DNA of 64,000 nucleotides from Botrytis cinerea B05.10 (lineage: Eukaryota > Ascomycota > Leotiomycetes > Helotiales > Sclerotiniaceae), in contig NC_037311.1 of NCBI RefSeq assembly GCF_000143535.2, positions 1-64,000 of the forward strand, written 5' to 3'. This document shows, one piece after another, positions 11,968 through 42,834 of the stretch (position 1 is its first letter; each line of letters opens with the position of its first letter). A model generated the notes under the pieces. The model was not told where the DNA came from. It did no database searches and worked only from the letters and a program-made list of their open reading frames with translations. The translations under genes were made by a program, and so were the position numbers.

Positions 11968-11992
11968 AGATTTCGAGCCCGGCTCGAAATCT
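11968..11992. repeat. 25-nt palindrome, dispersed copy 1
   Basis: Perfect 12-nt arms AGATTTCGAGCC and GGCTCGAAATCT around one C. It lies 218 bp before the first gene of the block. See the other dispersed copies and the array at 41862-42697. Confidence 0.85.
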
Positions 11993-12210
11993 ATAAATCG
12001 ACTCCTACGCATCAAGGCTTTTTTTATTATTTGTACAAGCACCCACTTGAGAAGCAGGATCCATCATTCTAAACGCACCTAGGAATTTTTGCACTATAAA
12101 TTACTTCGCATCAAATCCTTCAACCTTTAAATCTTAAGGCTTCAATTGCGTCATATTGCCCTATATTTTTCAGCGCCGCGGGATATTCCGACTGTGCTGT
12201 TCTATCCAAG

Positions 12211-12869
12211 ATGTCAATTTCAAAGCCTTCAGAAATCAATTCGCAGGTGAGATATTGAAACATTGAGCGCGGTTGAATCCCCTATTAATTTTAACCCTAA
12301 GGCAACATTTGAGCCAATGCCAGAGCAGCTCTTTACCCAATGCGCAACTTTCAGAATTAATGGGGGCTGCAAGCGGAGTGCCCATCTCTGGCTAAATCAC
12401 CTCAAGCAAACTGAATTGAGCGAGCAATCTCATATTCCAAATATTGCGCTCCCTCCAGCATCGAGTCAAAAAATGGAGGAATATTGGATGCGACTTGCTC
12501 TTGTGATCTGTGATGATGGGGCGGCACTAGGGATCAAGGTGCCTCTCATTATCCAAGTTATTGAAGCGGAACGCCGGCGTTTGACGGTGTGCCAGAATCG
12601 AGCTCAACAATGGTGCTTTACCCGGCGGAATAAAGTCACAGCTGCTTTTCAAGTTTTTGTATACAGAGCGGCGTGCAATGCTTTGCAGTTGGCGACGGAC
12701 ATTTTACGAAGCGGCATCCATCCAAGCGCAGATTATTTTATGAGCAGCGGTAAGTTAAATCCTTTCGCATTTGATTTTACTAATTTGAAATGAAGCCGCA
12801 CGATTTGAGCGCTGCCACTTCGATAGAGCTCCAATAACAATTCGCATTCACAATCACAATCAACTCTAG
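12211..12869 (+). CDS. Small helical protein, family S, member 1 (spliced, unknown function)
   Basis: Proposed exons 12211-12246, 12302-12749 and 12796-12869, giving 185 residues. Intron 1 starts GTGAGA and ends CCTAAG after TTAAC. Intron 2 has a textbook GTAAGT donor and a CTAAT branch, and ends GAAG. Phases agree at both joints. Without splicing the main frame has no ATG. The last exon begins AARFE, matching AARYE in the gene at 13555, and intron 2 is at the same position and phase. The central part is predicted helical around EEYWMRLALVICDDGAAL. I recognise no known domain. The two neighbouring genes at 13.5 and 14.8 kb are diverged paralogues. Confidence 0.7.
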
Positions 12870-13554
12870 AGCGCTTGAAAAGCTTGCACCTTGTCTTGAA
12901 TCTAGTGCACGAAGGCTTTGAATCGGCTTGGAAGGTCCAATTAAGTGAATGGGGCGGTTGGGGCAGCGAAAATTTGAAATATATTGGTATATAATAAGAT
13001 TAATTCCACTTCTGAAAAATTGACTCCCAATTGCAACTCGCAATATTGATGCATTGCAATAAAGTCTAAGTTGAAATTAGAAAAAATGCGCTTGCGAGTT
13101 ATTTTAAAGAGCGCTTTGACAGAAGCCTATCAATGCTTTAGCCTCGATTTGCCCTTAATTTTGAAACTAGATTGAAATATTGCGCAATAAACATATATCA
13201 TTAGCGCTTTTCTCACGTGCAATGCGACTGACCTCTATGTTAAATAATTCATGTAAATTTTACCTGCCTCAAAGCGCTAATATAAGCGAGTGCAATTCAC
13301 TTTATTAATATAATTATTCGCTTCGCTCTTTCCGCTTTTCCATCTGCAATATATTAGATTGCAAGCCAGCTCGTCCTGAATCACTTGTGGGCTATCATCT
13401 AAACTGATCGTTGAACTTCGCTTCGCTCAACAAAATCAATGCAGCCCTTCGACAGCCTTCGGCCAGACCCCCACCAAATGGTACAGAAACTTTCAAATCC
13501 CTTTTGTGAAATGCTCTTTTGCTAAATTCTTTTTAGTCTCTGACAAAGGGGAGC
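12870..13554. other. Intergenic, no supported gene
   Basis: An 87-codon minus-strand frame (12780-13043) overlaps exon 3 of the upstream gene and has no supporting signal. The stretch at 13489-13550 ends GCTAAATTCTTTTTAG, a good fungal acceptor. An extra 5' exon for the next gene is therefore possible. Confidence 0.5.
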
Positions 13555-14087
13555 ATGATTGATTGGGTGAAAACAGTCTTCGATACAGGCCACAACCACT
13601 GCGAGAGACAATGGTTTGATAAAGCCGCGCACGTTTTAACAATCGATCATCCTTCCCATACTTGTTGCGGCCTTGCCCCTGAATTCGCAGTGGGATTGAG
13701 TCACTATTGGGCTGGTTTTGTTGCCAATATGCAATATTCATTGGAAGCAAAGGGCTTTGCGAAAGAGGAAATCCTTGATTTGATTGCAGCTCAGGAGGAG
13801 GTTCAATCCGACAGTGCAAGGAATTGCGCTGCGCTAGCATATCAGCACCCTGAAATTATGTGCTCCAAGATATTCGAGAGCATTAGTTGTACGAGCGCGA
13901 GCGCAATTCTAGCCGCTGCTAAGTCTTTAATGCTCGCTAATCAAATCCCGACTGAGAGCTCGATAATGAAAGAGGTTGCTCATTGTGGTATGTATAGTGC
14001 AGCGCTACCTTTAATGAGCCTTTACTGATTTGAATTGCAGCTGCAAGGTATGAAGCAATTGAAATCGCAAAAACAGATTTCGATTAA
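13555..14087 (+). CDS. Small helical protein, family S, member 2 (spliced, unknown function)
   Basis: Exons 13555-13987 and 14041-14087, 159 residues. The intron of 53 nt has a GTATGT donor, a CTGAT branch and a TTGCAG acceptor. The final exon reads AARYEAIEIAKTDFD and then stops. Unspliced, the frame would end in the intron. Relation to the gene at 14771 is visible: WF...H....DHPS...C is shared (QWFDKAAHVLTIDHPSHTCC against EWFSPTQHIPSSDHPSTQLC). A conserved W begins the helical core in all three. The frame stays open upstream to the acceptor ending at about 13535, so the N terminus may be longer. No known domain recognised. Confidence 0.7.
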
Positions 14088-14770
14088 TGAGGGATTGCTG
14101 AATTATTTATTTGGTTTGGTTTCCCCCCTCACCCTTTATTGCAAAATATAATTCTAATATCACTGCAGCGGAATTAACCAGCCGTCGCCTCATGCATGGA
14201 AAATGGGTAGACACACGTTTAGCCCCTTCGCCAACCTCGAACCCGGTTGCAAAGCGCTCTTTCTTAAAATCGCTATTGAGATTTAATATTAATTGCAAGG
14301 ACTCTCATTTACTTAATCTGAAAGTTGCACTTCTAAATGATTGCAATAAAATCGTTGATTTCCAATGCGAATTTTACATCTGAAGTGAAACCCCAGGTGG
14401 TATCAAGTATCATGTAATCATTTGAAGTGCAATATTCCTATAGATAATAACCGAGGCATTGCAATCGCGCATTTTAATTGGGCGCAATATCTCGCTTAAT
14501 TCTAAAATTTTAAATCAAAAACCTCAACTTATTTTTGTCTTTGAGAAGTTGGGATCAATTATAAACACAATAATCTCAAATCCAAGACTTGATTGATAAC
14601 TCACAAGTTGCGGAACTATGACGACATTGACCAAGATTAAAGCATTTCTACGAAATCGAGAGATGGAAAAGGTTAAGTGATAAAACCATAGCACACTTGA
14701 ATATTTATCTAATTTTACATAGCCCATTGCCAATACAGTTGCGCGAAAGGAGATATTTCACAAATACGCA
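14088..14770. other. Intergenic, no supported gene
   Basis: Two opposed frames of 63 and 90 codons at 14107-14383 overlap each other. Neither has splice or family support. The rest is AT-rich promoter-like DNA. Confidence 0.5.
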
Positions 14771-15199
14771 ATGGCGGAATTATTAAAAGCAAAGCAATTT
14801 TCCATAAGCGAGTGGTTTTCTCCAACGCAACACATTCCCTCAAGCGATCACCCGTCAACTCAACTCTGCGAAATAGATGAATTATTGATCCCATCGATTA
14901 TTAAATTTTGGCTTGAAAGAGCTTTTGCAATTTTCGAAATAGGGCAGAGGCTCGACATCCAAGGCCCCGATTTAGTTAGCGCGATTGATACATTAATTGC
15001 GCGGATTACTGTTGAAAAGTTCGCTGCTCAAAAGAGAGGCCCGAAGACTTGCCTGAAGATTGCTGAGCAAGAAATTCTCACATTTTCACTTCTGTTGCTT
15101 TGCGAGATCAAATCCCTTGTAGAAAGGGGGCTCCAATTAGGAGCGTCAGGAAATCCAAAAGTGGAAGAGGATTTTGCAAGATTGTGCAGTTTGTTGTAA
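14771..15199 (+). CDS. Small helical protein, family S, member 3 (unknown function)
   Basis: ATG 14771 to TAA, 142 residues, apparently without the last intron. It aligns with the two preceding genes through WF....H....DHPS...C near the N terminus and a Trp-led helical segment (IIKFWLERAFAIFEIGQRL). Its end, EEDFARLCSLL, has AR at the place where the paralogues resume after their intron, so the intron may have been lost. Hydrophobic heptad-like spacing suggests a compact helical fold. No signal peptide or membrane segment is seen. Function unknown. Confidence 0.65.
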   Translation: MAELLKAKQFSISEWFSPTQHIPSSDHPSTQLCEIDELLIPSIIKFWLERAFAIFEIGQRLDIQGPDLVSAIDTLIARITVEKFAAQKRGPKTCLKIAEQEILTFSLLLLCEIKSLVERGLQLGASGNPKVEEDFARLCSLL

Positions 15200-16330: not shown

Positions 16331-17103
16331 CGTGGAATTGCGAGGCCCATTTTCTCACAAATTCCGGAAAGATTTGAGAGCGGGAAGAGCCACTACGCGA
16401 TAAATTTTAATACGCTATCTTTAAACCCCTACCGTTGCCACCCCGCTCCTCTGTTATCTTGCGATTGCCAATTTCCCAAAGCGCTGTGAAGTGAAGCTAA
16501 CTATGAGAAAAAGAGCTTCGACGTCAGCCAGAGCTCTTGCCAGGGCTAATTAAGGCTAGCTGCCTTTGCTCTCGCCCTCACGTGAACCACACTATCAATA
16601 ATTGCTTTTAAATTGCTTCAAAAAAAATTTAAATGAAATTTTTTAAGATTTGATCAATGGCAAATTAATTTGTATATAATTTTTGATTTCATTTTTTCAC
16701 TATATAATAAAGACTTTAGCATTTCGAACTGCCCTCTTTGGCATTAAACCATCGAAAATCATTTAAAAATAAATAATTTAAAATTGCCAATCTTTGAATT
16801 CAATTTTAATTTTAAAATAATGATTTTTAAATCTGTCATTAATTTTTGTTTCAATATTGAAAAATGGGCGCGTGCATTGGGGGCATTAGTTGAAGGGGTT
16901 GCTTGCGCAATTTAAAGATTTCAAAATCAGGCAGGGAGCTAAACATCGCTTTTAAGCAGGCAGACCCTTGGAGAATATCTATTTATATATGTGCATGTTT
17001 GAATAAAGAAAGAAGTAAATAAAGAAATAATTTAATAAAGAAAATTTGCAATCTATATATTCACTTTCAATATTTTTATTTTCATGAAAAAATCAACTTT
17101 CCA
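16331..17103. other. Intergenic leader of the first large module
   Basis: No gene seen. AT-rich, with TATA-like TCTATATATTCAC about 50 bp before the ATG at 17104. Confidence 0.5.
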
Positions 17104-17847
17104 ATGGCACCTTTTCCAAGCAAGCGCAATATCGCTACGCGATATATTTTCAATCCGGGATTCGGCAGCCTTCATCTTGGGGATTTTATCGAGAAAGTAA
17201 AAGATGGCTTATACGCAGAAGATATTTTGTCCGATTATGCAATTGGAATTTTGATTTTTGCAATAAACGCTGAATTGATCCCAGATTGGATTGCTGCACT
17301 TTTTCGAATTCCTTTTGATGCGCCTATGGAGATAAGGGATGGCTTGCCCCATGTTGGACTCCCATTTTTAGGGCCAGATGACTTACCAATGAGGTGGAAA
17401 GGGCGGCTTCTCTGCGGTGGCCGAGGCGTTGGTTTGGCAGAGGAGGAGCTTTCGCACATCAAGAGCTCAGCCTACGATTTTGATGGCACCTTTCGCGCCC
17501 CAAATTTTAATGATTGGTACATTTCAAATATTTGGGCTGGGATGGACGAAGGCTCTATTGGATCGTATAAGCGCAAAAACAACTTTTCAACATTTGAGGA
17601 GTGCATGGAGTTTATCAACGCTCAGGAATATGCGCCCAGCCCAGGCTCCATCCCACAAAGCATTCAGCAGACTGAAAACTTTCAAAAAATGAATAATTCA
17701 ATGGTGGAAGGGGCGCCGGAAAGCGATTGTGAAGGGGGTGGGGCTATAGGGATGGAAAGTGAAAGCTGCATTAAAGAGGAGCCATTCAAAAAATACCGAT
17801 TTCGCAATAGGGGTTTGAAGAAAAGAGCTTATAGAGTAATCGATTAG
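17104..17847 (+). CDS. Family T protein A (shared N-terminal domain, short basic tail)
   Basis: 247 residues. Residues about 13-190 carry the domain common to five genes in this window (17104, 21615, 23321, 30458, 31881). Conserved pieces here are KDGLYAEDILSDYAIG, LPHVGLPFLGPDDLP, KGRLLCG and, near the end, FINAQEYAPSPGSIPQ. The tail is short, with acidic residues and then a basic end (KKYRFRNRGLKKRAYR) that could be a nuclear localisation signal. The domain matches no family I can name. The gene converges on the large gene at 17925, 77 bp away. In this copy GPDG is GPDD and the ...NWV/FVN element is FIN. Confidence 0.8.
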   Translation: MAPFPSKRNIATRYIFNPGFGSLHLGDFIEKVKDGLYAEDILSDYAIGILIFAINAELIPDWIAALFRIPFDAPMEIRDGLPHVGLPFLGPDDLPMRWKGRLLCGGRGVGLAEEELSHIKSSAYDFDGTFRAPNFNDWYISNIWAGMDEGSIGSYKRKNNFSTFEECMEFINAQEYAPSPGSIPQSIQQTENFQKMNNSMVEGAPESDCEGGGAIGMESESCIKEEPFKKYRFRNRGLKKRAYRVID

Positions 17848-17924
17848 GGGTCATTGCTACTCTTTCAAAATATTGAACTTTTTAATTATTTCAATTAATT
17901 TTAAAAAGCTTAGATATCAATAGT

Positions 17925-20900
17925 TTATTCATCATCGCTATTGAAGCCAATCGTTGAAGATTCATTGCTTTCTTCAAGTGAATCAATGGATGTATTGCCT
18001 TCACCCTCATCACTATCGAAAGCCCACTCCCCCTCCACAATATCATCACTATCCTCCCCCTCTGCAATATCATCACTATCCCCCTCTTTGTCGCCTTTTT
18101 GTATAGGTTTATCTGGAGCAAGGTGGGGCATAGAAATTCCTAAGGTTTGAGACCGCTCCAAATGATAGTAATATGAATTTTTACCAAATGCTGCCCTTTC
18201 TCTCTCCTTAACTAATGCGCGGGAAGCCTTTACTTTCTCATTCAGATTCCGTCTCCAATCGTAAACAAATTGGGTTGCAGTTGATCTATTGCCCTTTAGC
18301 AAGCGGTATCTTTCATTTAAGACTCCTAAATCATTCCAGCGGGCTTGACAGTTGAGAGCACTTGATAATGAGCCCAATCCATTGAGCAAGGTTGAGGCAG
18401 GAAATTGATATGGGATTTTCCCATAGCGATTGCTCAATCCTGAAGGAGTCTTAAAAGGCGAGGTCATATCGCGATGGGATTCGGAGAGCATCTCCCACGT
18501 GCCACCATCTAAGACCTCCAAGGAGGAGAGGTCGGGCTGAACTTTCACAAACCAAGGAAGTAGAGTTCTTCGCACACCACGAGCTGGTCCATTGGCTCCA
18601 TGCGGGAGGTGGGGCATCGTAACCCTCACTTGCCCTCGATTGCAAGGCACTGCTTTCCATTTGACCCCCAATTTCTTCTCATCTTCCGCTGTTACCATAT
18701 TGCTTTTGATTCTATGAACATGCCCATTTTTGGTTTTTTGTCGGCTCTCAAGATCGCGCCACCATGTTTCAAGATTGCGATTGCGATGCATGCCAGCAAG
18801 TATGACTGTGCAATCAGATTCTTGTTCGTCGTCCAATGAAAGCGACCCTTGAATCATATTCCCCCCTCGGTTGCTCTTTATCCATTCTGGAACATTTATA
18901 TCAATGTGTCGAAAATAAGTTTGATCCCCCTTATGAGTGTATTTGGCATAGTAGGGGTAAGAGCAGAGCGTTGTAGCCCCATCCGGCCGCAAGGCTGCAT
19001 AAAGAGCGTAATATAATGGATCGCTTCGCATTGCTTGTTGACATGTGGAAAAAAACATATTCCGAAGCCAACCATAATTTTCCTTACCGTTTTGCTCGCG
19101 CAGGTGAAATTGATACACGTCAAAGAGCTCCAACGCAAACTCGCCCATCTCGCACCCTGGCTCCCACCACCAACTGAATAAATTCACATTAACAGATCCA
19201 TCGCGCTCCCATTGAAGCTTATCAAAACCGCCATTAAAGTCACGGTTGATCCAATCCAAAATCTCGCTCTGGTTAAAATCAAATTCCGAGGGCAGTGGCG
19301 TGTGTGCAAAATTATACGGGCCATAGCCATCCTCTGGTCGCGCAGGGCGGTCTTGGACCCGGAACCATTGGTAGGTATCTTCGTTGGTTTTCAACTCTCC
19401 AATACGCTCGATGTGATCAGAAATATAGCGAAGCCTCTTTTGCAAAGCGGAATGATTCAGGGGCTTAACGCACAAACCTATGTGACCGCCCATTGACTTG
19501 GAATGATTGAAGCATACAGATTTAAATTGAATCCATTGCTTTAATAGCCGAGGGGCTTTCGCTGGGTCATGGATTTTTCGAGGTTTCATCGAGGCAATCC
19601 AAGCGCTCGAAACATCTACTGAGCAATATTCGCAAGGGCGCTTTGTTGATGGCTCTGCGCTAGAGCTATGGTGCACGCGAATTGGATTGCTGCTCCCATT
19701 AATAGCGCGAGTGGGAGCGGCGCTTCTTTGATCGCTTGCATCGCTTGCATCGCTCAATGCGCTGTCACTTTCGCCATTGCTTATCGCGGTTTCAAAAGGG
19801 CCTTGGCCTAGCCCATTCAAGTTATCGCTTGAGGGGTCATCGTCAATAGCCTCGACACTTTGCAATTCGATTATGGATTCATTTTGACTCTTGCTGCTCG
19901 CTTCGCTTTGCGCTAAGGGGTTGCGATCTGCGATTTTATCAATTGCTCCGACTTTTGATATCACGTGATCGGTCGCGTAGCGCGAGCCATCGATTTCTTG
20001 AGCCGGGCTCGAAAAATCGCTTGAGCCAATCAAATTCGCTGCTGCAATAGCGCTGTCACCCTCAGGCTCGCTTGAGCTATCGTAACTCTCGCTCCCCCCG
20101 CATGATAAGTCGGCGCTCGATTCAATGGCCCTCTCATTCCAAGCCTTTGGGACCAAGAATCCAAATTGATTAATGCAAAGGTTAAATGTGCGAAGCTCTT
20201 CACTGGTGATTTTCTTGATGGGGAATTTGAGGCCGCATTTAAAATCGGTAGCTTGAAGTTGCCATTTGTTGGAGACGCCAGCTGCAGAAGCGCAAATGCG
20301 ATGCAGCATTGCTTGATTAACCTTTTGCGAGCCATTAATTAAATTTTCCTGCAAAGCAATCGATCGAACTTGGGTCAAGAAATATATTGAGGAGTCGAGG
20401 CTGCGGAGCCAATTCTTCACCTCAACCCCCCACGCTTTTGAAATGGCACTCAAAGCCTCCTCTTTCTTATCTCTTTTCTTAGCCTGATCAGCGCAGATCT
20501 CGTGAGCCAGATCCCATAGGGGCGCGAGGGCACTATCATTCATTAAATCTTGACCACCGGGATCGCTCTTGATGTATTGACAAAAGCGCTCAATTTGCTC
20601 GCGAGTTACCGAATCGCGATGCAGCAATAATCCCAATATCTCAATTTGATATTGCTGCCTTTCACTCGTATCAGAAATTCTCTTGACTGCGCTTATATAA
20701 TCGTCAATGCCATTTAATTCACCACCCGATCGAAGTGCGAGGGAATTATTCAAGCTTTCGTTGGACAGTGCAGCTGCCTTGGGGAAAATAGTTAGAGCGG
20801 TGGAACTCGATCCGCTTGCGTTAGGCAAGCGCTTTGAGCGAGAGCTATTGTGAAAGGGTGAAGGCGAATTTGAGTCATGAGAAAATCGTGCTTGCTTAGC

Positions 20901-21014
20901 TCCCACGAGTTCAATTGGATCGAGAGAGTGCTTAAGGCTTTTGAGTGAAACTATTGACAAGGTTGAATCGCGATTTGCAGCGCATGGGCTGTTCGGCTTA
21001 AAGGGGGCGTCCAT
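17925..21014 (-). CDS. Large protein D1, possible 2OG-Fe(II) dioxygenase-like core
   Basis: ATG at 21014, 1029 residues, apparently uninterrupted. The N-terminal third is Ser-rich and probably disordered. A CEYC motif follows, then a conserved core. In the core, HID (about 18905-18913), NRGGNMIQGSLSLDDE, a downstream PHLPHGANGPARG and RRTLLPWFV fit the HxD...H...R order of the double-stranded beta-helix of 2-oxoglutarate/iron dioxygenases (PhyH or TET/JBP-like). This is pattern reading, not a search result. The acidic C terminus is rich in Asp, Glu and Ser. It is paralogous to the gene at 25755 over most of its length. The palindrome copy at 19993 lies inside the frame and encodes FSSPAQEI. 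An origin as a transposon-linked dioxygenase is possible but unproven. Confidence 0.75.
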   Translation of the reverse strand: MDAPFKPNSPCAANRDSTLSIVSLKSLKHSLDPIELVGAKQARFSHDSNSPSPFHNSSRSKRLPNASGSSSTALTIFPKAAALSNESLNNSLALRSGGELNGIDDYISAVKRISDTSERQQYQIEILGLLLHRDSVTREQIERFCQYIKSDPGGQDLMNDSALAPLWDLAHEICADQAKKRDKKEEALSAISKAWGVEVKNWLRSLDSSIYFLTQVRSIALQENLINGSQKVNQAMLHRICASAAGVSNKWQLQATDFKCGLKFPIKKITSEELRTFNLCINQFGFLVPKAWNERAIESSADLSCGGSESYDSSSEPEGDSAIAAANLIGSSDFSSPAQEIDGSRYATDHVISKVGAIDKIADRNPLAQSEASSKSQNESIIELQSVEAIDDDPSSDNLNGLGQGPFETAISNGESDSALSDASDASDQRSAAPTRAINGSSNPIRVHHSSSAEPSTKRPCEYCSVDVSSAWIASMKPRKIHDPAKAPRLLKQWIQFKSVCFNHSKSMGGHIGLCVKPLNHSALQKRLRYISDHIERIGELKTNEDTYQWFRVQDRPARPEDGYGPYNFAHTPLPSEFDFNQSEILDWINRDFNGGFDKLQWERDGSVNVNLFSWWWEPGCEMGEFALELFDVYQFHLREQNGKENYGWLRNMFFSTCQQAMRSDPLYYALYAALRPDGATTLCSYPYYAKYTHKGDQTYFRHIDINVPEWIKSNRGGNMIQGSLSLDDEQESDCTVILAGMHRNRNLETWWRDLESRQKTKNGHVHRIKSNMVTAEDEKKLGVKWKAVPCNRGQVRVTMPHLPHGANGPARGVRRTLLPWFVKVQPDLSSLEVLDGGTWEMLSESHRDMTSPFKTPSGLSNRYGKIPYQFPASTLLNGLGSLSSALNCQARWNDLGVLNERYRLLKGNRSTATQFVYDWRRNLNEKVKASRALVKERERAAFGKNSYYYHLERSQTLGISMPHLAPDKPIQKGDKEGDSDDIAEGEDSDDIVEGEWAFDSDEGEGNTSIDSLEESNESSTIGFNSDDE
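19993..20017. repeat. 25-nt palindrome, dispersed copy 2 (inside coding sequence)
   Basis: Arms ATTTCTTGAGCC and GGCTCGAAAAAT around one G, extended by CG on both sides. It lies in the D1 gene and encodes FSSPAQEI on the minus strand. Confidence 0.8.
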
Positions 21015-21614
21015 CGCAATTTGGAATTATAGTACACTGATAGCTTGAGGGAGCGCTTAAAGAATGAGATATTGGGTAAGAGATAAAGAAATTCGCTATT
21101 GCAAAGTAGCAAATAATCAATTGATTATTAATCATTTATGCTAACTCAATATGGAATCGCGCGGTGTAAATCCATTTCCATGTATTTCGATGCGAGGGGG
21201 ATCCCATATTGAGAGTGTCAACTATATAAAATGGAATTCAGCAAATCTCACACTGAAGTGAAGCAATAAATTAATTTAGCAATTAATGAAAAAAGGAATT
21301 CTTGCGCCCGCTTTAAATAATAAATTGGGGTCATTGTATGAATCGCACTTTTTTATAGGGCTTTGATAGGCCCCGCATTTGCTTGCGCGTTGAGATTTTC
21401 ACTATTGCACACTTTTGAGAGCTTTCAATGCAATTTACTAATAAAGAAATCCCTTCAAAGAAATCAATAAAGGAAATTTTAATTAATTTAGGATAAAGAG
21501 AGCAATTTTTTATAAATAGTTTGATTTTACTTAAATTGATTTAAAAAAAAAGTAAATTTCTAATTTATATATATATATTGCACCCCTCACAAAACCAAGT
21601 GCTGAGCGCGCAGG
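21015..21614. other. Divergent promoter region between D1 and family T gene B
   Basis: 600 bp between two divergent starts, no gene seen. TATATATATAT at about 21570-21580 lies some 35 bp before the ATG at 21615. Confidence 0.6.
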
Positions 21615-25267: not shown

Positions 25268-25323
25268 GGGATGAGAGTTGAGAGTGAAAGAGGGGAGTTG
25301 CACATTAATTCAAATTCGATGAA

Positions 25324-25678: not shown

Positions 25679-25703
25679 AAATCTCGAGCCCGGCTCGAGA
25701 TTT
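25679..25703. repeat. 25-nt palindrome, dispersed copy 3
   Basis: Perfect arms AAATCTCGAGCC and GGCTCGAGATTT around one C. It lies between the convergent 3' ends of gene C and gene D2. Confidence 0.85.
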
Positions 25704-31880: not shown

Positions 31881-33296
31881 ATGACACCAAAAGCAACGAA
31901 AGAGGAAGATGCCAATCGCGCCATTTGGAACCCCACTCCAGGAACAATCCACATTGGTGACGCGATCAATCGATTGAAGGATGGTCAATACGCCAAGGAG
32001 ATAGTTTCCGATTACGTCTTGGGGATTTTCTTTTTGGCGGAGAGCATTGGAATTATTAAAAAGTGGGAGGGCTCCTTATTGCAATGGCCCTTTACGAAAA
32101 ATATGAAATTGCGCAAGGTGCTTCCTCACGTTGGGGAGCCGTTCAATGGCCCCGACGGAAAACCAATATATCATGCAGGGCGTTTACTCTGCGGTCATTC
32201 TGGTTTTCGAATTGAGGAAGCGATTTTAAATCAATGGGCCCGATCGGAATTCAATTTGAAATCTATGAAAAAATCGGGCGCTCATCAATCATGGCTAAAG
32301 CATCACTTGTATGCTGATAGAGAAAAGGATGATTTGCAATATCGTCGCACCAACGTCAATAACTCGAAAAAAAGTTGCGATGATTTCGTCAACAGTGCTC
32401 TGACGCGTATAAGAGCACCCGATGTCACGAATCAACTTGATGGCGATGGCGCAATATATCCTAAAGCTATCAGTGTGAAGGATGCAAAGAAAATTGATGT
32501 AGGGGGCAATGAATTGAGGGGTTTTGAAGGGGTTAACGATGCAGGGGAAGGAGGGGAGGTTTATAGAGGGATAGATGCTATACTAGGAGGCGATTGGCTG
32601 GATGGTATGGGATATGAAGGGAATTTTTTTCATAGTGATTTGTTGCAAGGGAATTTGTTGCAAGAGGGGGAAAATTCTAGATGGAAAGGGAAAGGGAGTG
32701 CCTCCTGTGCGATATCGGAAAGTCAGCATTTAAGCAATAGCGGCTTAAGAGTTGCTGATTTATCAGGGAGAGATTTTCGAGACCTCACACCTGACTTTAA
32801 TTTATCGCCAGCCTGGAATCAGCTGTCCAATGCTGAACTTTCAGAAATATTAATGAGCGCAGCCCCCGACTTAAATCAGCAACGGCCCTTCGATCAGCAC
32901 TCTGTTAATCAACAGCAGCCCTCTGATCAATTGCAACTCTTTGATCAATTGCAATCCTCAGATCAATTGCAGCCTCCAATAATCGACTCGATATCAGATC
33001 TCACTCCATTTGGTCTTTTCAATAACTTCGAACCAAATCCAAACCCTTCAAATGCAACATTGGGCTTTGATAGTGCACCCCTATCACATAACAATGCACT
33101 CCAGCCCATAAATGAATCTAATGTATCAATTGATTGGGGCGAAACTGAATCAATATCACAATACATTGGTAGTGGGGGATTCAATTTTGATTTTTTGGAT
33201 TCTGAAGGAGCGATTGATGAGGTCCATAAAGAATGGAATTGTAGCAATGATGAAGAAAGGGCTGATGGCGCTCCAAACGAATCGAGGGGTGAGTGA
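31881..33296 (+). CDS. Family T protein E (Gln/Asn-rich acidic tail)
   Basis: 471 residues. Family T domain at about 12-190: NPTPGTIHIGDAINRLKDG, YAKEIVSDYVLG, KWEGSLLQWPF, PHVGEPFNGPDGKP, GRLLCG, LYADR, CDDFVNS. The tail has no basic cluster. It is Asp/Gly-rich at first, then Gln-rich with repeated SDQLQ/FDQLQ units (about 325-350), then Asn/Ser/Glu-rich. Such Gln-rich acidic regions are common in transcriptional activators, which is only a suggestion here. D and E are the closest pair of the family. It converges on the large gene at 33698. Confidence 0.8.
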   Translation: MTPKATKEEDANRAIWNPTPGTIHIGDAINRLKDGQYAKEIVSDYVLGIFFLAESIGIIKKWEGSLLQWPFTKNMKLRKVLPHVGEPFNGPDGKPIYHAGRLLCGHSGFRIEEAILNQWARSEFNLKSMKKSGAHQSWLKHHLYADREKDDLQYRRTNVNNSKKSCDDFVNSALTRIRAPDVTNQLDGDGAIYPKAISVKDAKKIDVGGNELRGFEGVNDAGEGGEVYRGIDAILGGDWLDGMGYEGNFFHSDLLQGNLLQEGENSRWKGKGSASCAISESQHLSNSGLRVADLSGRDFRDLTPDFNLSPAWNQLSNAELSEILMSAAPDLNQQRPFDQHSVNQQQPSDQLQLFDQLQSSDQLQPPIIDSISDLTPFGLFNNFEPNPNPSNATLGFDSAPLSHNNALQPINESNVSIDWGETESISQYIGSGGFNFDFLDSEGAIDEVHKEWNCSNDEERADGAPNESRGE

Positions 33297-33697
33297 TGAG
33301 GTAGGAGCCGGCAGCTTAATTTTTGTGTGAGCAATATAGAAGGGAGGAAGGGTTTGGAATTAATGAAATAGTAATTATATATATTTTCTAATTTGTTTTT
33401 ATTTATCTTTATAACGATATGAATTGTATATGTGCTAGTTGATTTTCTGTGCGGGGCCTGCAGCTATAGTGAGGCAAATCATTTTTCGAGCCCGGCTTGA
33501 GAAATGCAAAAATGGTGGGGGGCTGCAGGTGAAGCTTCCCTTGTGCAAAGCTCGCGGAATTCTTTTTATAGAAAGGAAAAACACATTGCTCCTTTATACT
33601 AATTCAATTTATGCTAAAGCAATCGCAACTTTATCTAAGAGTACCTTTTACAATTTTTTTTTTCAAAATCTGTCCCGAAATCCTATTGAAAATTTTA
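33297..33697. other. Convergent intergenic region
   Basis: Short frames only. It contains palindrome copy 5 at 33481. Confidence 0.5.
33481..33505. repeat. 25-nt palindrome, dispersed copy 5
   Basis: Arms ATTTTTCGAGCC and GGCTTGAGAAAT around one C, two mismatches between arms. Intergenic between gene E and gene L. Confidence 0.8.
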
Positions 33698-36600
33698 TTA
33701 AGGGCTGTCCAATTTTGCAACCCACTTTGCTTTCATAATGCGATCCATATCCGTCAAAGGGTAGGGGAGAAACTCCGTTTCAAAAGTGAGCTTGGGAGGG
33801 ACCCCTCTGAAATGGGAATTGGAATTGCTCTTTGTAGGATTGCAGTGAGTGACCTTGGGCCCGCGATGATACGAAGTCTGTTGCATCAAAACTTGAACTG
33901 AGATTGGGCCAGATTTGCACGCGGCAGGTGGAAAATCTTCAACCCAATTCCAAGCCAACCAAGAGTACCCTTTATTATTCTTTTTTCGAGAAAGCAATTG
34001 AGTAGTATCAGGGTTTGGTAGTAATGGATTGGTAGCGTGAACTACACAATAGAATTGATATTGCCAATCGCTTTGCGCTTCGCGACCTAGCCTCTCTCCA
34101 ATCAATCTAAAAACCCTTCGATACGCTATGCGAAAGGGCTTATTCTTCCAATGATCGCGCTTTCGAACCTTTCCACTCGGCTCAACCCAATCATCATTAA
34201 TGCCAAAGAGATAATCGAGAACGTGCAAAAAATTTCCCTTGTGAAATATAGCATTGCTAGTATGCAAATCTGGGCTGGAAGGGCACTCGGGAAGGTCCCT
34301 AACATACTGAGTAATATTATCAAATGTTATGGACACTTGCCCCGAGATGAGCTTTTCCAAAATGGAATGGGAGTGGTGTTTTAAAGTTTTATTGCTATCC
34401 AGCTGCGCCCAAACATCGCATCGATAGGCGATCATCATCAGCCCTGTGCAAAATTCCAAGATGGCTTGATGCTGGCGCCAAGCGAGAGAATCGCTAGGGG
34501 AAATGGATTCAAACCACTCTTGAATTTGATCAATTATCGAATCAACCTCCCAGACCTTAAATGCATGCAATCTCTTTTTCGCAAGAGCCTTGACAAAATC
34601 TGGCCGCTCGGGAAAAAACCCTTTGCTGAATGAATCTAGGATGCGAAATGCTCTGAAATCCACTTTGGGGCAAAAGTATGCGTACCCAAACTTCATCATT
34701 TGCCGCTCCATTCCCATTCCATAAAATTGTTGATTTAAAGCAAGCCCCTCTCTGCGATTAATGATTTGATTGGACTCCCTGCGATTCCAATGATTCTGAT
34801 AAAGATGTGGAGCGCCCTTAATATTTTTACACAAAACGCTATTTCGAATCAGTTCCAAGAACATCAATGCAGTAGCTGTCGCTGATTGTTTCACAACTTC
34901 GTGATTCAAGGTTGATAAAACATGCTCGAATCCCATCAAGGCTTTATTAACATTTGAGCGCAGAAATGAGGCAAAGATGGGAGATTGAACAATCCAAAAA
35001 GGGAGGTGGCGAGCGATAGAATGTTGATTGGGGAAATTCCCTCGTTGCACTCTGAAATATTCGCTTCGCAATTTAGCTTCGTACATAGTTTCCTTTGCGC
35101 GGAGTGGAATTGAGCTAGAGTAGCGAGCATCGCTAGGTGCAAGAAAATTGATTTCCCAATCCCTAATGCCATTCTGCGAACCGCCCCCTTCACTTGAATT
35201 TGCACTTCTCGCAAGACTTTCACTATTGAATGTAAGATCATTTGCGAAATTCTCACCCCCCATCCCGCTAACGCTCCCTTGTGAATTTTCACTACCCCAT
35301 TCACTTTTCTCTTGATCAGCCAATTCTCGCAATAAGGAAAAGCAAATATCAGCGCGAATTCGATGCTCCTCTCGAGGTTCGCAGGAGGTTTTCTCAATTT
35401 CATCAATTCCAAGATCTGTGCGGTTGACTCCATTGATGTAAGCATCAGCAGCATTTTGAAATGTGGGCATTTTACTTTTTCCAGCGCTGCCAACAGCTTT
35501 CAATTGCGCTGATCCATATGCTAAAGCATCAATATCCCTACTTTGAAAGACTTCGACAGTGGAAGTGACAAAGTGCATTTTTGATCTGGTGTAAAATTGA
35601 CTGTAGCAAGCTCCACCAACAGCTTGCTTGGACCCTTTCCGTGCAGTCATGGTAGCAGAAATAATATCCCGGCAGCCACCGAGGTTGAATATTTCCAAAG
35701 GAAGCGTGGAGCGGGTTTTACATTTTGTGGCTCGCTCATCGTAATATTTCTTGATGCAGCATGGCTTCCAAAGCATAGTGAGCTCATCAAAATTGCTATT
35801 CTTCACCGGTGTGAACTGCCGCCCAAGGTCCAACCAGCAGCGATCCATTGGAATAAAGGCATTATTGAACTGCTTGCTCCATCGCGCGCCCCAGGTTTCG
35901 TGCAATTGAGAGAATGAAGGTTGACGTTCCGAATCTTTAAAGCCCTTTCCATTGAAATATAATCGCAAGCCGTAAAAATCAACTAATTCCAATGCTTCAA
36001 TTAAGCGATAGCACTCGCGAGTAAAGGTATCAAATTGATCGCTTTGATTTGGATTAATTCGATAGCCAAGTGATTGAAAGCGAGATTGAGACCCGCGAAG
36101 GCGATTTTGCTCTGTGCCGTGCGCATTTGCGTGAGCTTTCATGGTTTCCCAGTGAGAGGGTATAGATTCCGACGTGTGATGATCAAAGGCGAAGCTCATT
36201 GCAGGGTGGATCACCTCCTCGTGTAGGATTTTGCGTTGATCGTCACTAAGGTAAATAGAAATGTGCTTTTCCTGAGATTTCTTCAGGCCCTTCCTTCGGT
36301 GAAAGAAGATGTTGGGGAAAAGCAGGTAGATATTGATGGAGCTCCAATCGTGAAGTTTGCCGAAAAAAATATGAGGAATCTTTTCCGGGGAGAGCAACAA
36401 AGCGTGCTCTGCATCGAATCGAAAGGGGTTCAAATCAGCAATTGCTAAATAGTGATCATCTGAATCAAAGGGCAAATTGTAGGGAATTTTGATGTAAACG
36501 CCATGGGTGCGACCTGTTAATGGAGCATTCGTATAAGGGTAGTAAATCCACCCAGTTTTAATCGCAGCTAAACTTTTGAATTCCCCACACATACTATCAA

Positions 36601-38298
36601 TATCTACAGTAATTGTAGGGGTTTGCTCTGCTGAAACCTCAAGCTCATGATTCAACATGCACAATGTAGGGGGCTTGGTGCGAGTTGAATCAATGCAATA
36701 TTCGTCATCGCTGAGGGGCTCTGCAACTGATTCGGCTCGTTCAAAAGAGCGATCAGTAACTCCAAAACCTTGATTGCTTTGTATACGCGAAAGATGATAG
36801 GTGCCTTCATAGATAGTGCGAAGTTGCCTTTCACTTAAGTGATCCACCATCAGGGAATGATTGCTTGAAGTTTGACGTGGCAAATTTGATGCTGTGAATA
36901 TCTCCTTTCCACGTTGAAGGTGCCTTTTGCCGAGATAATTTGGAATCTCGTTTTGCTCCCGATATGGATTTCTTTCAATTGCAAATTGACGAAGGTTGAT
37001 GCAATGATTGGAGTGAGATTGGCCGCTCCTAAACATTTCCTCATGATGCTTTTGAAATATCTTTTCATGTTCAACTTCCTCACAAAAAAATCCATTTCTA
37101 AAGTGAGCACAGAAGTGATCGAACGCATTGAAAGAGTAAGGATCAGATATTTCACCAAAAGGATCGCTATCCACTTCACTTCCCACTTCAATTTGATTTC
37201 CAAGATCAATTAACTCTTGCGCTGCCTCCCTTGCCTCCTCATTGCTAACTTCTATTTCATCATCATCAGTGGAGTAGTACTCTTCGTCAAAAGCAAAATC
37301 CGCATCAGACAATGCCTTTCGAATCTCAATAGTTGGCAATGGATTGCTGCTCTCAGAATAGCGCTCGAAATAAGGGGAGCCATTCTGATTGCTTGTATCA
37401 ATTTCAAAGCTCCCTTCAATATCTGCTGCATCAGGAATCCCTTCGAAATTTAAAGCTTCAGGAGTGAGCCTTGAAGCGGGGTTCAATTGCGATTGAAGTA
37501 ATTGAGCCTGAAGCAATTCCGCTTGATGCAATGGGGATTGATAATTCCGCTTAAAATATATAACAAACATTAGCTTCAATTTAAACTTTGAAACGATAAT
37601 CGCTTGCAATTGATAAAAATGTATTTTTCGAGCCCGGCTCGAGAAATATCAAAAAACCTGAGCGAGCAGCGCTCAAATGAATAAAGGGAAAAATCTTCTT
37701 CACCTACTCTGATGGAACTCTTTTGTGAGTAGGGATTTCGATCTTGGATTGAGGAAAATTGAAAGGAATTAAGATTTGCGAGAGTGAGTGGTGGGGTTTG
37801 AAAGGGGTTAAAAGCTTTTCCAATTTGTGAGCGACCTTCTTCGACATTGCTGCTACTATCCCAATCGCAATTGCTACTATATTCATTAGCTGCATCATCC
37901 ATCAACTTATTGTGATCTTCTTCAAGGATTGATTGATTCGCGCTACTCTTTTCGCTTGAGTATTGTTGATTCCGCTGCCCTCTTTCGAAAATTGCACCTC
38001 TCATATTTTGAGGCAGCGAATCCAATCTAGCAAATTCATCTCGACTGCTTTGAATTTTCAAAGCTTGAGGTTGTGGATTATTGACTTTATTGGAGTGGAG
38101 ATCGCTCTCATGATCATTTAAAGAATTTAAAAAACAATTATCTGCTCCTTCCTTTGAAATTGCAATTGATGTTGAGTTTGGAATTGAATGTCTCTTTCGC
38201 GATTGTTGAGTTGCGCTTGGGGTCAAGGGTCGTTTTTCAGAGCTTTTTTCCATTGGATATGGAAGCTCGTCATTTGGAGCTAGAGCGCTCAAAGGCAT
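33698..38298 (-). CDS. Large protein L (about 1480 residues, unknown function, one predicted intron)
   Basis: Proposed exons 38298-37708 and 37549-33698, 1480 residues. The joint is in phase: donor AGA|GTAGGT at 37707, acceptor ATTTTAAG after a GCTAAT branch. Without it the 1284-codon second exon begins with no good ATG and the first frame ends after 240 codons. The 158-nt intron contains palindrome copy 6. The N-terminal 500 residues are Ser/Asn/Glu-rich. The rest is globular, with conserved-looking blocks VDIDSMCGEFKSLAAIKTGW, MDRCWLDLGRQFTP, WKPCCIKKYY, GGACYSQFYTRSK and REEHRIRADICFSLL. From memory these resemble a group of large uncharacterised fungal proteins, without firm identification. 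No helicase, recombinase or polymerase motif was found. Confidence 0.7.
37623..37647. repeat. 25-nt palindrome, dispersed copy 6 (in predicted intron of gene L)
   Basis: Arms ATTTTTCGAGCC and GGCTCGAGAAAT around one C, one mismatch. It lies within the predicted intron 37550-37707. Confidence 0.8.
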
Positions 38299-38349
38299 TT
38301 TCCAATTGATAAAGATTAAAGTGCAATCTCTAAAGCGTTTCGAATTGCG

Positions 38350-39331
38350 TTAATTCAAGAACGATTCTGCATGCAATTGCTTTTGTTCCTCGCGCCAAAT
38401 GCTTGCTACCCACTTGCTCTCCCTCTCCTCTTTTTCAAGCTCGAGCTTTCTTAACCGAAATGCTGCTTTGCTTTCAAGAACTCTTTTTTTTTTATCAATT
38501 AAACAATCGCGAGTTCGAGTGAGAGCTTTTGATGGAATATTTCGATTAACAATTTCCCGTATTTGTTTCTCGCCGCCTTTTGCAATTGGCCCTTTTTTTC
38601 TTGAGGAGATAAATTTTCGAGATTGAATTTGTTGCTTTTTTCTTTTTTGATCGATTTTGCAATGTTTTTGGATTTTGAATGTAGTTTTTTGCTCGCTTTT
38701 TATTTTATCAATTTGCGTCTTTTCCTTATCTTTTAAAATTTCCTTTTTTGATTTATGAACTTCAAATACAGTTGAGGAGTTGTTTTTTGCTTGTGAGTTA
38801 ATAATCAAATCAATGGAGCCAGCTGGCTTTGGATTTATAGAGGGAACTTGCTTCGATAGTGTGCTTGAGGCATCAACCCTAGTGCAACTTTCTTGAAGGG
38901 ATGAATTTGAGAATTGAGTTGGAGTGTGATAGAGAGATTTATAAGCGGTCGAGGAAATCTGAATTGCATTGGCTAAAGCATCGATTTGGGAAAGTAAGGA
39001 ATATTGGATTGGCGATTCGTGAGCCTTTGGATCGCTGCTACTGAAAGGGTTTGTATAACGAATGGAGCGCTTGACTTTTGGTTGTCGTTCTGAGATCCAA
39101 CGTTCAATGTACCAAACCCAGTATTCCGAAGCCAATCCTTTAGTCGGGTAGTGAATGATTTGTTTTGGGTGATTGAAGTGAGGCTGCTTATCTTGAAGAT
39201 GTTAGTAAAGGCATTGATTCACTAGCAAGTAATAAAAAGACCTCACTTCTTTTCCAAAACTTATAACAAGCTGATAATGTATTCTTTAATAAGTTAGACG
39301 GGGGCGATTGCGTTTTAGACTCTTCAGACAT
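38350..39331 (-). CDS. Basic Lys-rich protein (spliced, unknown function)
   Basis: Proposed exons 39331-39242 and 39183-38350, 307 residues. The 58-nt intron has a perfect TTTACTAAC branch and a GCAG acceptor but a weak GTCTTT donor. Both joints are phase 0, and the long exon lacks an ATG of its own in a good position. Exon 1 reads MSEESKTQSPPSN then a Lys/Trp-containing end. Exon 2 starts PHFNHPKQIIHYPTKG and carries YWVWYIERWISERQPKVKRS, a Ser/Thr-rich middle and a Lys/Arg/Glu-rich C-terminal half that should be helical, possibly nucleic-acid binding. It lies 51 bp upstream of gene L on the same strand. A further frame at 39644-39324 (MGSKFDKSKRSKKVKEEEK) overlaps the start and may be an alternative 5' exon. 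Confidence 0.55.
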
Positions 39332-40160
39332 GCTTATTTAGTGACAGTTTTGATTCACCTCGAGGGAAAGCGCAAAATCGCAATATAGCTTGGAAGCTTA
39401 AAGTAAGATGCTTGAAAATGTATTGATTAAAATAAAATAGAGGGTTCAACCTACATTGTGGAAGGAGAGAGGTTGAGCTTTTGCATTTAGATTGAGAGCT
39501 TGATCGAAACTGAAAAAATTGAATCAAGCTTGCACGCTCTTTCAATTGAGTGCACCCACCTTTATAGAATACACGCTCAGCCCACTTTTTTTCTTCTTCC
39601 TTGACCTTTTTTGACCTTTTTGATTTATCAAATTTAGAACCCATTGCGACTCCATTAGCTCATTTTACTAATTGAAATAAAATAAATATTATTTTGACGA
39701 GCAAATAAATAGTGATTAAAATCATATAATCAATCAAACTGAATAAAAATATTGATAGTAAGGAATTTATATTGCTTGCTAAGTAGAGAGCGAGCGTAAG
39801 TGCTATCGGTGATGCAATCGCATACATTACCTATTATCGAACCGAGCTCAATAGATCAAAGCCGAATCAAACTTCAACCGAAATTTAATCATTCAATAAT
39901 TGAATTAACACTGCAAGATAGAATATCAAAAACTTTTTATTTGACACACCCTCATGTTGGATGAGCTGAAGGAAACCGAAGCAATTAACTCCCTTTGCAC
40001 AAAGCAATTTGAATGCCATTCAAACGATTAAGTTAATCTCACAACCAAAATTAAATTTCAAGCCGGGCTTAACATTTCCAAAAAGCCCCATCGCATTAAG
40101 AATATCGCCCTTCCAATAGTCGAATAATTCACACCTACACTACCCACTCAAACCAATTTA
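39332..40160. other. Intergenic with palindrome copy 7
   Basis: Apart from the minus-strand frame 39644-39324 mentioned for the preceding gene, no coding support. Palindrome copy 7 is at 40053. Confidence 0.45.
40053..40077. repeat. 25-nt palindrome, dispersed copy 7 (diverged)
   Basis: Arms AAATTTCAAGCC and GGCTTAACATTT around one G, three mismatches between arms. Confidence 0.65.
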
Positions 40161-41022: not shown

Positions 41023-41658
41023 TCAAAAAGAAAATAAATAACTGCAGCCTGGACATCCATTATATTGTGCCAACCGCTCCATGACATTCGTCCCATCAAA
41101 ATAATCTATGATATCAGATACAAGACTCCCTCTAATTAAATTAATAACACCTTCCACCTCATGATCATTATTATCAAACGCAGAGCAATGCAAATCCCCA
41201 TTCATAAAAGCGCATCGAATCTCCTGAACGATCCTATCGCTAAAGTTCAAAGCGAACCGGCTGCTATCGATGCCACGCCCTTCTTTATTATCAACATATG
41301 GGAAATATTGATAAACGCTCTGATTGTGAATGGTAATCGTGGTTGCAAATTGAAATGCGTTTTTCAAAGCGTGCAAAGCTCTCTCTGCATTATTTACTCG
41401 ATTGCGATCTGCTGCCTCATCGGATTGAAATGCAGTGATTCGAAAGTGGTAAATGCGATTTGACGAGATCCCAACAATCAATGAGCCAGCAGAGCTAACA
41501 AATGCAGCGAGCTCTTCAAAGTTGATTCGCTCCGACAATACAAGTAGACCAGGCGCTTTTTGATTAATTGACCAGCACATTGCATTGAACATGTCTGCCA
41601 AATCTTGATTTGTAGCAACATCTCGCTGACCATTTCGATCAATATTGATGCGTCGCAT
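41023..41658 (-). CDS. Hypothetical protein, 211 residues
   Basis: ATG at 41658 to stop at 41023, no intron needed. Composition is balanced and globular (ELAAFVSSAGSLIVGISS, RALHALKNAFQFATTITI, GVINLIRGSLVSDIIDYF), with CPGC close to the C terminus. No family recognised. It is the last gene of the block. The palindrome array begins about 200 bp away, on its 5' side. Confidence 0.6.
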   Translation of the reverse strand: MRRINIDRNGQRDVATNQDLADMFNAMCWSINQKAPGLLVLSERINFEELAAFVSSAGSLIVGISSNRIYHFRITAFQSDEAADRNRVNNAERALHALKNAFQFATTITIHNQSVYQYFPYVDNKEGRGIDSSRFALNFSDRIVQEIRCAFMNGDLHCSAFDNNDHEVEGVINLIRGSLVSDIIDYFDGTNVMERLAQYNGCPGCSYLFSF

Positions 41659-41797
41659 TGTGATTGTAATAAGTTCAATGAGTTTTCTTTTCAGATTGGA
41701 AATTGGAAACTAAACTAAATAAAAGAAAAGCGAAAGGCAAAAGGAAATAAATAATTATATTGTGATAACTTTAATCAATTTCGAAAGCGTGCAATTT

Positions 41798-41822
41798 ATT
41801 TTTCGAGCCCGGATCGTGAAAT
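41798..41822. repeat. 25-nt palindrome, dispersed copy 8 (transition form)
   Basis: ATTTTTCGAGCC followed by C and GGATCGTGAAAT. The left arm is of the dispersed type and the right end (GTGAAAT) of the array type. It sits directly before the array. Confidence 0.75.
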
Positions 41823-41861
41823 AAGATCATTCAAGTTTTCGAAATTTGAAAGGCAGGAGGC

Positions 41862-42697
41862 ATTTCGCAGGCCGGAGACGTGAAGTACATAATTTTTAGA
41901 ATTTTCAAAATGTGACAATTATTAATATGGTAGAGGCATTTCACAGGCCGGAGACGAGAAATACATAATTTTGAGAATTTTGAGAATTTTCAAAATGTGA
42001 CAATTATTAATATGGTAGAGGCATTTCACAGGCCGGAGACGTGAAATACATAACTTTCATAATTTTGAGAATTTTGAGATTTTCGATTTTTCCAATAGTA
42101 GACGCATTTCACAGGCCGGAGACGTGAAATACATAATTTTGAGATTTTCGATTTTTCCAATAGTAGACGTATTTCACAGGCCGGGGATGTGAAATGTAGA
42201 ATTTTGAGATTTTCGATTTTTTCAATAGTAGATGCATTTCACAGGCCGGAGACGTGAAATACATAATTTTGAGAATTTTCAAAATGTGACGATTATTAAT
42301 ATGGTAGAGGCATTTCACAGGCCGGAGACGAGAAATACATAACTTTCATAATTTTGAGAATTTTGAGATTTTCGATTTTTCCAATAGTAGACGCATTTCA
42401 CAGGCCGGAGACGTGAAATACATAATTTTGAGATTTTCGATTTTTTCAATAGTAGACGCATTTCACAGGCCGGAGACGTGAAATACATAATTTTGAGATT
42501 TTCGAGAATTTTGAGATTTTCGATTTTTCCAATAGTAGATGCATTTCACAGGCCGGAGACGTGAAATACATAATTTTGAGATTTTCGATTTTTCCAATAG
42601 TAGATGCATTTCACAGGCCAAAGACGAGAAATATAGAATTTTGAGAGTTTGAAGATTTTGAAGGGTGCAATTATTTCGCAAGCCCGAGCTGTGAAAT
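41862..42697. repeat. 12-copy array of a variant 25-nt palindrome
   Basis: Cores start at 41862, 41938, 42023, 42106, 42171, 42236, 42312, 42395, 42460, 42543, 42608 and 42673. Typical core: ATTTCACAGGCC, G, then GAGACGTGAAAT. The outer 7 nt on each side pair perfectly in most copies (ATTTCAC with GTGAAAT). Spacers of about 40-60 bp are AT-rich and repetitive (ACATAATTTTGAGATTTTCG, TTTTTCCAATAGTAGA). Centre-to-centre spacing is 65-85 bp. The last core (ATTTCGCAAGCC, C, GAGCTGTGAAAT) is intermediate with the dispersed type. Minus-strand frames over the array are repeat artefacts. Confidence 0.9.
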
Positions 42698-42819: not shown

Positions 42820-42834
42820 ATTTTAAGTATAAAG

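Follow-up and report, generated by a model that had tools for sequence, protein, structure and literature searches.

Telomere-linked helicase genes and the yeast Y' elements are subtelomeric, multicopy genes located near telomere repeats. Helitrons encode a Rep plus helicase protein and terminate at their 3' end in CTRR after a hairpin, and elements of the En/Spm type carry subterminal repeat arrays which are bound by an element protein. Palindromic elements of Rickettsia occur between genes as well as in frame within coding sequences. Among the telomeric retrotransposons, MoTeR (PMC7367193) and FoTeR (PMC12857005) are described as residing at chromosome ends only and as including truncated and RIP-mutated copies.

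The element considered here was found in a stretch of Botrytis cinerea DNA of 64,000 nucleotides (the window; features are listed in Table 1) and resembles MoTeR and FoTeR in its location at chromosome ends and in its truncated and RIP-mutated copies. In contrast to these retrotransposons, however, it spans a block of about 30 kb in which many genes are unknown, its proximal end reads TATAATA instead of telomere repeats, and Pfam revealed no reverse transcriptase in the 14 block ORFs scanned (opposite-strand ORFs and those shorter than 150 aa were left out), nor in 39 members of the L family. Like telomere-linked helicase genes and Y' elements, the element genes are subtelomeric and multicopy, but no Pfam helicase was detected in the ORFs scanned, and a RecQ-type helicase domain gave no Pfam match in the 14 block ORFs and the 39 L-family members alike. 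For the tyrosine-recombinase captain of Starships, the 14 ORFs scanned gave no Pfam match either. With Helitrons the element has in common an asymmetric end, a possible hairpin-like stretch just inside it and variable flanks; its end is TATAATA rather than CTRR, however, and its proteins gave no Pfam match to Rep or helicase and a weak fold match to a Rep protein. As in En/Spm-type elements, many short symmetric sites are clustered just inside the end, in addition to others elsewhere, whereas no transposase was recognised and perfect in-frame copies lie inside element genes.

For family T, homologue searches returned nothing but near-identical matches, and neither T nor L displayed a recognised DNA-binding fold here. 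When block proteins were searched against PDB sequences, the sole E-value below 0.001 arose from adding up three weak hits on an engineered cytochrome, and Foldseek with an L-family model gave best E-values of 0.16 against the PDB and 0.51 against viral models. Pattern and protein scans confirmed no DNA of relatives in viral contigs and GTDB contigs, and literature searches brought up no description of the element or the palindrome motif.

Table 1 Positions of palindromes, genes and element ends within the window
Feature	Position	Strand	Remarks
Second right-end copy	8020..8051	+	2 mismatches; proximal end of short telomere-side element
Palindrome 11968, perfect 27-nt	11967..11993	.	0/12 arm-pair mismatches; ~220 bp upstream of possible first ATG (12,211) of gene 1
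Gene 1, fragmented ORFs (perhaps several exons)	12211..15199	+	no Pfam match above cut-off
T1, family T	17023..17847	+	
D1	17925..21026	-	1033-aa ORF, 2OG-Fe(II) dioxygenase-like; FRHIDIN motif kept
Palindrome 19993	19993..20017	.	inside D1 coding region; encodes DFSSPAQEI; 2/12 arm mismatches
T2, family T	21606..22901	+	
T3, family T	23225..25267	+	
Palindrome 25679	25679..25703	.	perfect, 0/12 mismatches; between convergent 3' ends of T3 and D2
D2	25755..29276	-	1173-aa ORF, dioxygenase-like; FSRLDIN replaces FRHIDIN
Palindrome 28360	28360..28384	.	inside D2 coding region; encodes RFSSPAREI; 1/12 mismatches; inner 23 nt perfect
T4, family T	30452..31522	+	
T5, family T	31710..33296	+	
Palindrome A (33481)	33481..33505	.	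2/12 mismatches; between convergent 3' ends of T5 and L
L (L1), main 1316-aa ORF	33698..37648	-	paralogue L2 in family found in many ascomycetes
L-region upstream ORFs	37576..38349 and 38350..39201	-	gene model unsettled
Palindrome B (37623)	37623..37647	.	1/12 mismatches; overlap of two minus-strand L-region ORFs
Palindrome 40053, diverged	40053..40077	.	2/12 mismatches; ~410 bp upstream of minus-strand ATG at 39,644
228-aa ORF adjoining array	41023..41709	-	no Pfam match
Palindrome C (41798)	41798..41822	.	3/12 mismatches; ~140 bp upstream of minus-strand ATG at 41,658
Array of 12 degenerate 25-nt sites (ATTTCACAGGCCGGAGACGTGAAAT type)	41862..42697	+	units 65-85 bp
Conserved right end of element (...CTAACCCTGATTCCGCTATAATA)	42783..42814	+	adjoins 14 different flanks

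According to the original prediction, eight dispersed 25-nt palindromes occur in this block and none outside 11.9-42.7 kb. All eight are indeed present at their coordinates, and a scan of the window found no member of the family beyond these limits. Their symmetry was evaluated by counting 25-nt palindromes with at least four G/C per arm in region 11,901-42,700 and in 40 dinucleotide shuffles. Here, 2 perfect palindromes were observed, and 4, 9 and 22 with at most one, two and three mismatches, versus shuffle means of 0.0, 0.05, 1.6 and 12.6 and shuffle maxima of 0, 1, 4 and 23, respectively; the nine sites at up to two mismatches include array site 42171 and the unrelated site 31436. Hence, at three mismatches, the number seen in site 41798, symmetry by itself does not exceed chance, and this site is a family member through its letters. 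Sites fitting the family consensus with up to three mismatches numbered 5 in the window versus 0 in each of 20 shuffles, and at up to seven mismatches 17 versus a shuffle mean of 0.15, tandem copies among the 17 not being independent. Apart from symmetry alone at three mismatches, the family is thus far above chance in the shuffles, which rules out chance GC-containing palindromes. The diverged site 40053 retains the GCCGGGC core, yet differs from the family consensus by more than eight mismatches. The context of palindrome B is intron, 5' UTR or coding sequence, depending on the gene model adopted for the L region.

In the whole genome (42.6 Mb), 28 consensus sites with at most three mismatches were found, all of them subtelomeric, while a reversed-pattern control gave none. 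Five of these sites lie in the window, the other 23 no more than about 12 kb from a contig end, and those that were compared fall in copies of one repeat. A looser pattern, ATTTC-N15-GAAAT, matched 209 genome sites (control: 21), and array or element sites made up 28 among 50 matches listed. From window segment 32-42.8 kb, 10 kb are copied at C5R and C14L and about 3 kb at C7L, C9L and C11L, each with 98-100% identity; short pieces are present at C1R, C11R and C13L, and matches to the L protein add the ends C10R and C16R. The letters of palindrome A are identical at C1R, C5R, C10R, C11R, C13L, C14L and C16L, those of palindrome B at seven other ends and those of palindrome C at nine other places. 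Since the genome sites compared fall in copies of the block and the family exceeds chance, neither copies unrelated to these genes nor a chance-level count was found, and the proposed tie between palindrome family and block holds. In contrast to Rickettsia palindromic elements, with which they share intergenic and in-frame coding locations, the palindromes measure only 25-27 nt, keep a fixed gene position in homologues and display no independent dispersal, all 28 sites being subtelomeric and, where compared, confined to element copies.

The idea that the palindromes delimit the block had to be given up. On the right, the element ends sharply at 42,814 in a sequence other than the palindrome, which is joined to 14 distinct flanks, and most palindromes are internal; they lie within a telomere-associated element and are not its borders. 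Just inside this end lies the array, each of whose 12 units (41,862-42,697) contains a degenerate relative of the palindrome with 6-8 mismatches. Deletion derivatives also exist, in which 33,949 is joined to 42,668, beside site 42,673.

In the RIP-mutated copy at C15, six of seven palindrome sites align without gaps (the seventh, 41798, aligns only with gaps), and all six carry mutations, with 4-9 changes per 25 letters. Immunity of the palindrome to RIP is thereby ruled out. Arm mismatches changed from window to C15 copy from 2 to 5 at site 19993, 0 to 4 at 25679, 1 to 2 at 28360, 2 to 2 at 33481, 1 to 4 at 37623 and 2 to 3 at 40053; hence, palindrome symmetry was mostly, albeit not always, lost. 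Site 11968 is still perfect in C15, as it falls in a stretch of near-identity between C2 and C15 that extends from 11.4 to about 13.0 kb.

The two D genes are paralogous and carry their in-frame palindromes at homologous protein positions. The predicted D2 model displays the double-stranded beta-helix fold of 2OG-Fe(II) dioxygenases of the PhyH / DUF1479 type, from which D differs in an extra helical N-terminal region, a long palindrome-bearing linker and low sequence similarity. Inspection of the HxD...H metal triad at the sequence level located an FRHxDxN motif in D1 and homologues which is altered in D2. The replacement there would have removed the putative iron-ligand histidine, with the palindrome being retained. 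The linker bearing the palindrome (residues 246-364) has pLDDT values below 50 in the predicted model, which would make constraint on a folded peptide unlikely. In 18 of 23 D homologues, a matching peptide occupies the palindrome position of this linker and is therefore probably inherited rather than freshly inserted; five homologues (one of them N-truncated) and the D relative at C12 are without it, and P0005 contains it twice in tandem. Across homologues, motif residues vary pairwise (P-R, P-G, L-Q, T-R, P-W, H-M, D-I), with position 1 being nearly fixed as F (L in P0016 and P0019) and position 7 as E.

For a covariation test, motif rows were taken from alignment A1 and by regular expression, with P0012 and P0018 added via the motif instead of alignment position, while visual inspection supplied P0016 and P0019; P0014, P0017, P0020, P0022 and P0023 were dropped for lack of the motif, and P0021, near-identical to D1, was set aside. 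For each of the 17 remaining motif homologues, a perfect 21-nt palindrome could encode the peptide (10/10 pairs), and 14 of them reach 13/13 pairs over 27 nt, compared with 86 of 22,033 (10/10) and 33 of 21,983 (13/13) among all windows of 25 D proteins, motif included. The 17 unique peptides, which include those of D1 and D2, had a mean of 12.65 of 13 versus 11.73 ± 0.17 in column shuffles, which ignore kinship of the sequences, and none of 20,000 shuffles reached the 27-nt score; for the 21-nt core, 16 of 17 peptides were perfect versus a shuffle mean of 9.2, and 1 of 20,000 shuffles reached this count. In the D alignment, 596 ungapped nine-residue blocks were scanned and no block mean exceeded 11.56; the motif itself was not among them, since one alignment row places a gap column there. 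The best block mean in the L family was 10.81 of 13, below the D motif. L-family blocks free of palindromes reached shuffle z-scores of up to 4.6, however, so that the value of about 5.5 for the D motif is not decisive by itself. With all 17 homologues encodable as palindromes and none of the 20,000 shuffles reaching the 27-nt score of the peptide set, self-complementarity, more than sequence, appears to be conserved. At the peptide level, it is strongly indicated that self-complementarity of the D site is kept in other organisms, probably fungi, via paired codon changes; the homologues' peptides are compatible with palindromes in their genes, and the paired changes suggest that symmetry itself does a job.

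The palindrome is best explained, with a probability of roughly 0.55, as a cis-acting recognition site of a telomere-associated multi-gene mobile element which is read by a symmetric nuclear protein. A protein-binding site or processing signal, as first proposed, still ranks as the best kind of explanation, and further evidence for selected symmetry comes from the in-frame sites of the D genes. The palindrome would thus belong not to the host chromosome but to the mobile element, which comprises D, T, L and further genes and ends on the right at 42,814, and it would be bound by a symmetric nuclear protein, a dimer that the element itself probably encodes. Palindromes at gene flanks would set expression, those in the D genes would be internal sites, and the many-copy array beside the element end would serve mobilisation or end processing; the encoded proteins are candidates for this link. 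Counting against this explanation, two arm pairs are mismatched in the palindrome of D1 itself, degenerate sequences occupy sites 40053 and 41798, and the motif is absent from five of the 23 D homologues and from the C12 relative.

The inner palindrome sequence, moreover, seems to differ between organisms, to which a plain sequence-specific site is less well suited. The main rival, a tentative possibility, is a hairpin or cruciform recognised by shape, formed either by single-stranded DNA in rolling-circle-like movement or by RNA in transcripts. Rather doubtful is a broader proposal of a new class of telomere-seeking DNA element operating without reverse transcriptase or known transposase. Such an element would carry a palindromic address in non-coding DNA and in its own dioxygenase gene, with compensatory codon changes preserving the symmetry across divergent organisms. 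Recognition of this address, either through its shape or by a dimer co-evolving with it (possibly L, which is perhaps Rep-like), would direct new copies to chromosome ends, and the dioxygenase would act on marked DNA or chromatin.

A tiny mobile palindrome, also suggested originally and comparable to bacterial palindromic elements, would have spread within the element and entered an ancestral D gene in frame. This would account for the near-identity of letters between intergenic and coding sites, for D homologues lacking the motif and for the tandem pair in P0005. The idea is nevertheless unlikely, albeit set aside less firmly than the border role, as no genome copy with at most three mismatches lies outside subtelomeres, no target duplication was noticed by eye in the 10-nt flanks, and the D motif keeps to one linker in most homologues. 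Quite improbable, too, is a conserved D peptide serving as docking motif, with its DNA palindromic by coincidence and the intergenic copies unrelated or derived: the nearly fixed positions 1 and 7 would fit, but the paired changes make sense as complementary codons, the linker is modelled as disordered and non-coding positions show the same DNA letters. Functionless, degenerate remnants of an ancient tandem array, scattered through recombination, are hardly credible despite the common 25-nt layout of array and dispersed sites and the existence of deletion derivatives, since sites 11968 and 25679 are perfectly symmetric and D displays paired changes.

The element gives borders to genes without a Pfam family match and offers a reason why several chromosome ends of the assembly stop inside the same repeat. 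If the homologous genes are palindromic in their DNA as well, as their peptides predict, the D genes would represent a clear case of a coding stretch held by self-complementarity and not by its peptide. Binding and mobility would then be directly testable with a 25-bp probe, and a handle would be gained on how chromosome ends are reached by an element in which no reverse transcriptase is recognised.

The window opens with TAACCC telomere repeats and makes up the left terminus of contig C2 (3,341,473 bp) in a genome of 18 contigs and 42.6 Mb; an ORF on contig C13 is 100% identical to B. cinerea protein P0024 across the searched region. All eight 25-nt palindromes of the original prediction, named here by their window starts, are present as described. 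The family lies far above dinucleotide shuffles, except that the symmetry of the weakest site, 41798 (3 mismatches), does not on its own exceed them. Genome-wide, the 15-nt core is found exactly at 12 sites and the 23-nt form, with up to 3 mismatches, at 28, all of them subtelomeric, and reversed-pattern controls for both gave zero sites. The 23 sites of the latter form outside the window are non-independent and repeat three window positions with identical letters (33481 and 37623 seven times each, 41798 nine times), about 4.1-4.2 kb apart where neighbours exist. These three recur because other chromosome ends carry further copies of the 32-42.8 kb segment.

Coordinates of features in the window and of related loci
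Feature	Position	Observation
LTR retrotransposon	1081-7739	Ty3/gypsy type by eye; coding region broken into several ORFs; within short telomere-side element, empty site at C15 end
Its LTRs	1081-1692, 7128-7739	Identical, 612 bp each
25-nt palindromes (starts)	11968, 19993, 25679, 28360, 33481, 37623, 40053, 41798	
D2	25755-29276	FSRLDIN replaces FRHIDIN
Array	41862-42697	12 degenerate 25-nt sites
Right end of element	42,814	
AT-rich repeats	42830-48000	RIP-looking, 18-28% GC; parts recur beside element copies at other chromosome ends
ORF group	49847-60246	By eye, resemble FAD monooxygenase, enoyl reductase-like and adenylation/carrier/thioesterase protein; looks like subtelomeric secondary-metabolite cluster
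Core site	C15:5497	Repeat of 11968
L2, paralogue of L	L022:3131-7327	Intact, 1399 aa, ~27% identical to L; AT-hook-like RGRPRK start; at ends of C1, C11, C13, C16; no palindrome of the 25-nt family inside C13 copy
Third D relative	L024:868-3537	On C12, far from telomere; without palindrome or motif
Family T-like ORFs	C11:851203-852241	Internal chromosomal position

The 32-nt right end of the surrounding multi-gene element (...CTAACCCTGATTCCGCTATAATA) has 16 matches with 0-6 mismatches, followed by 14 distinct sequences among the loci compared, and a 195-bp probe of it finds 22 places, some being short partial matches. One copy terminates within another on C14, one on C10 adjoins, by eye, sequence resembling telomere-adjacent DNA, and on C12 a mutated array directly abuts telomere repeats. 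Together these features match a mobile element whose proximal end is fixed and whose distal side varies. Several contigs end inside the element (C5 and C16 right; C7, C9, C11 and C14 left), and fuller copies may therefore be concealed by assembly. Over 11.4 to ~13.0 kb the C15 copy is nearly identical to C2; of 279 differences between 11.4 and 14.0 kb, 271 are C>T or G>A, which beyond ~13.0 kb are a sign of RIP, and numerous stops interrupt the D1, T, D2 and L frames of this copy. Deletion derivatives at the right ends of C1 and C11 and the left end of C13 link 33,949 to 42,668 through a short stretch of CAATT identity, as does, judged by match positions, one at the left end of C16; the junction directly adjoins the last array site, 42,673.

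At homologous positions of the dioxygenase-like proteins D1 and D2, within a linker predicted as disordered in the structure model, palindrome 19993 encodes FSSPAQE and palindrome 28360 encodes FSSPARE. D2 is probably an inactive dioxygenase, judging by its sequence, with the palindrome nonetheless kept. A short motif occupies this place in 18 of 23 D homologues, probably from fungi, one of which (P0021) is near-identical to D1; it is doubled in tandem in P0005, and the linker of P0020 carries a long run of another short repeat. Variants include HFPSPAREM, HFPSPAGEM, HFTSPAREM, DFLSPAQEI, HFPAPGWEM, HFPARGWEM, DFPRRAGEI and CLPGPAGET. Position 2 covaries with 6 and 3 with 5, and the flanking residues are matched as H/M or D/I; in most of these pairs the codons, inferred from the peptides, can be reverse complements. 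At the level of peptide compatibility, a perfect palindrome is encodable over 21 nt by 17/17 and over 27 nt by 14/17 motif peptides other than that of P0021, against 0.4% and 0.15% of all windows in D proteins; the D1 peptide is imperfect (9/10 pairs) and that of D2 perfect over 21 nt only. The 17 unique peptides score 12.65/13 on average (11.73 in column shuffles) and 12 are perfect (3.5 in shuffles), values reached by 0 of 20,000 shuffles. Relatedness among the sequences makes this test less strong, but codons 2/6 show at least six pair types (P-G, P-R, T-R, P-W, L-Q, S-R) and codons 3/5 several, which argues, as far as sequence can tell, for repeated paired change.

A structural reader recognising the palindrome by shape would accommodate the variable inner letters among D homologues and the stable hairpins that 11968, 25679 and 28360 can form; four other sites fold no better than shuffles. 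We rate this as the less probable of two readings. Because symmetry is kept at coding, predicted intronic or UTR, and intergenic sites, and a related 12-site array lies beside the element's end, we favour, with a probability of roughly 0.55, the palindrome as a putative symmetric recognition site of the element. At the array sites the outer arms ATTTC/GAAAT remain but inner pairing is scant, as would suit a dimer contacting a pair of half-sites spaced some two helical turns from each other.
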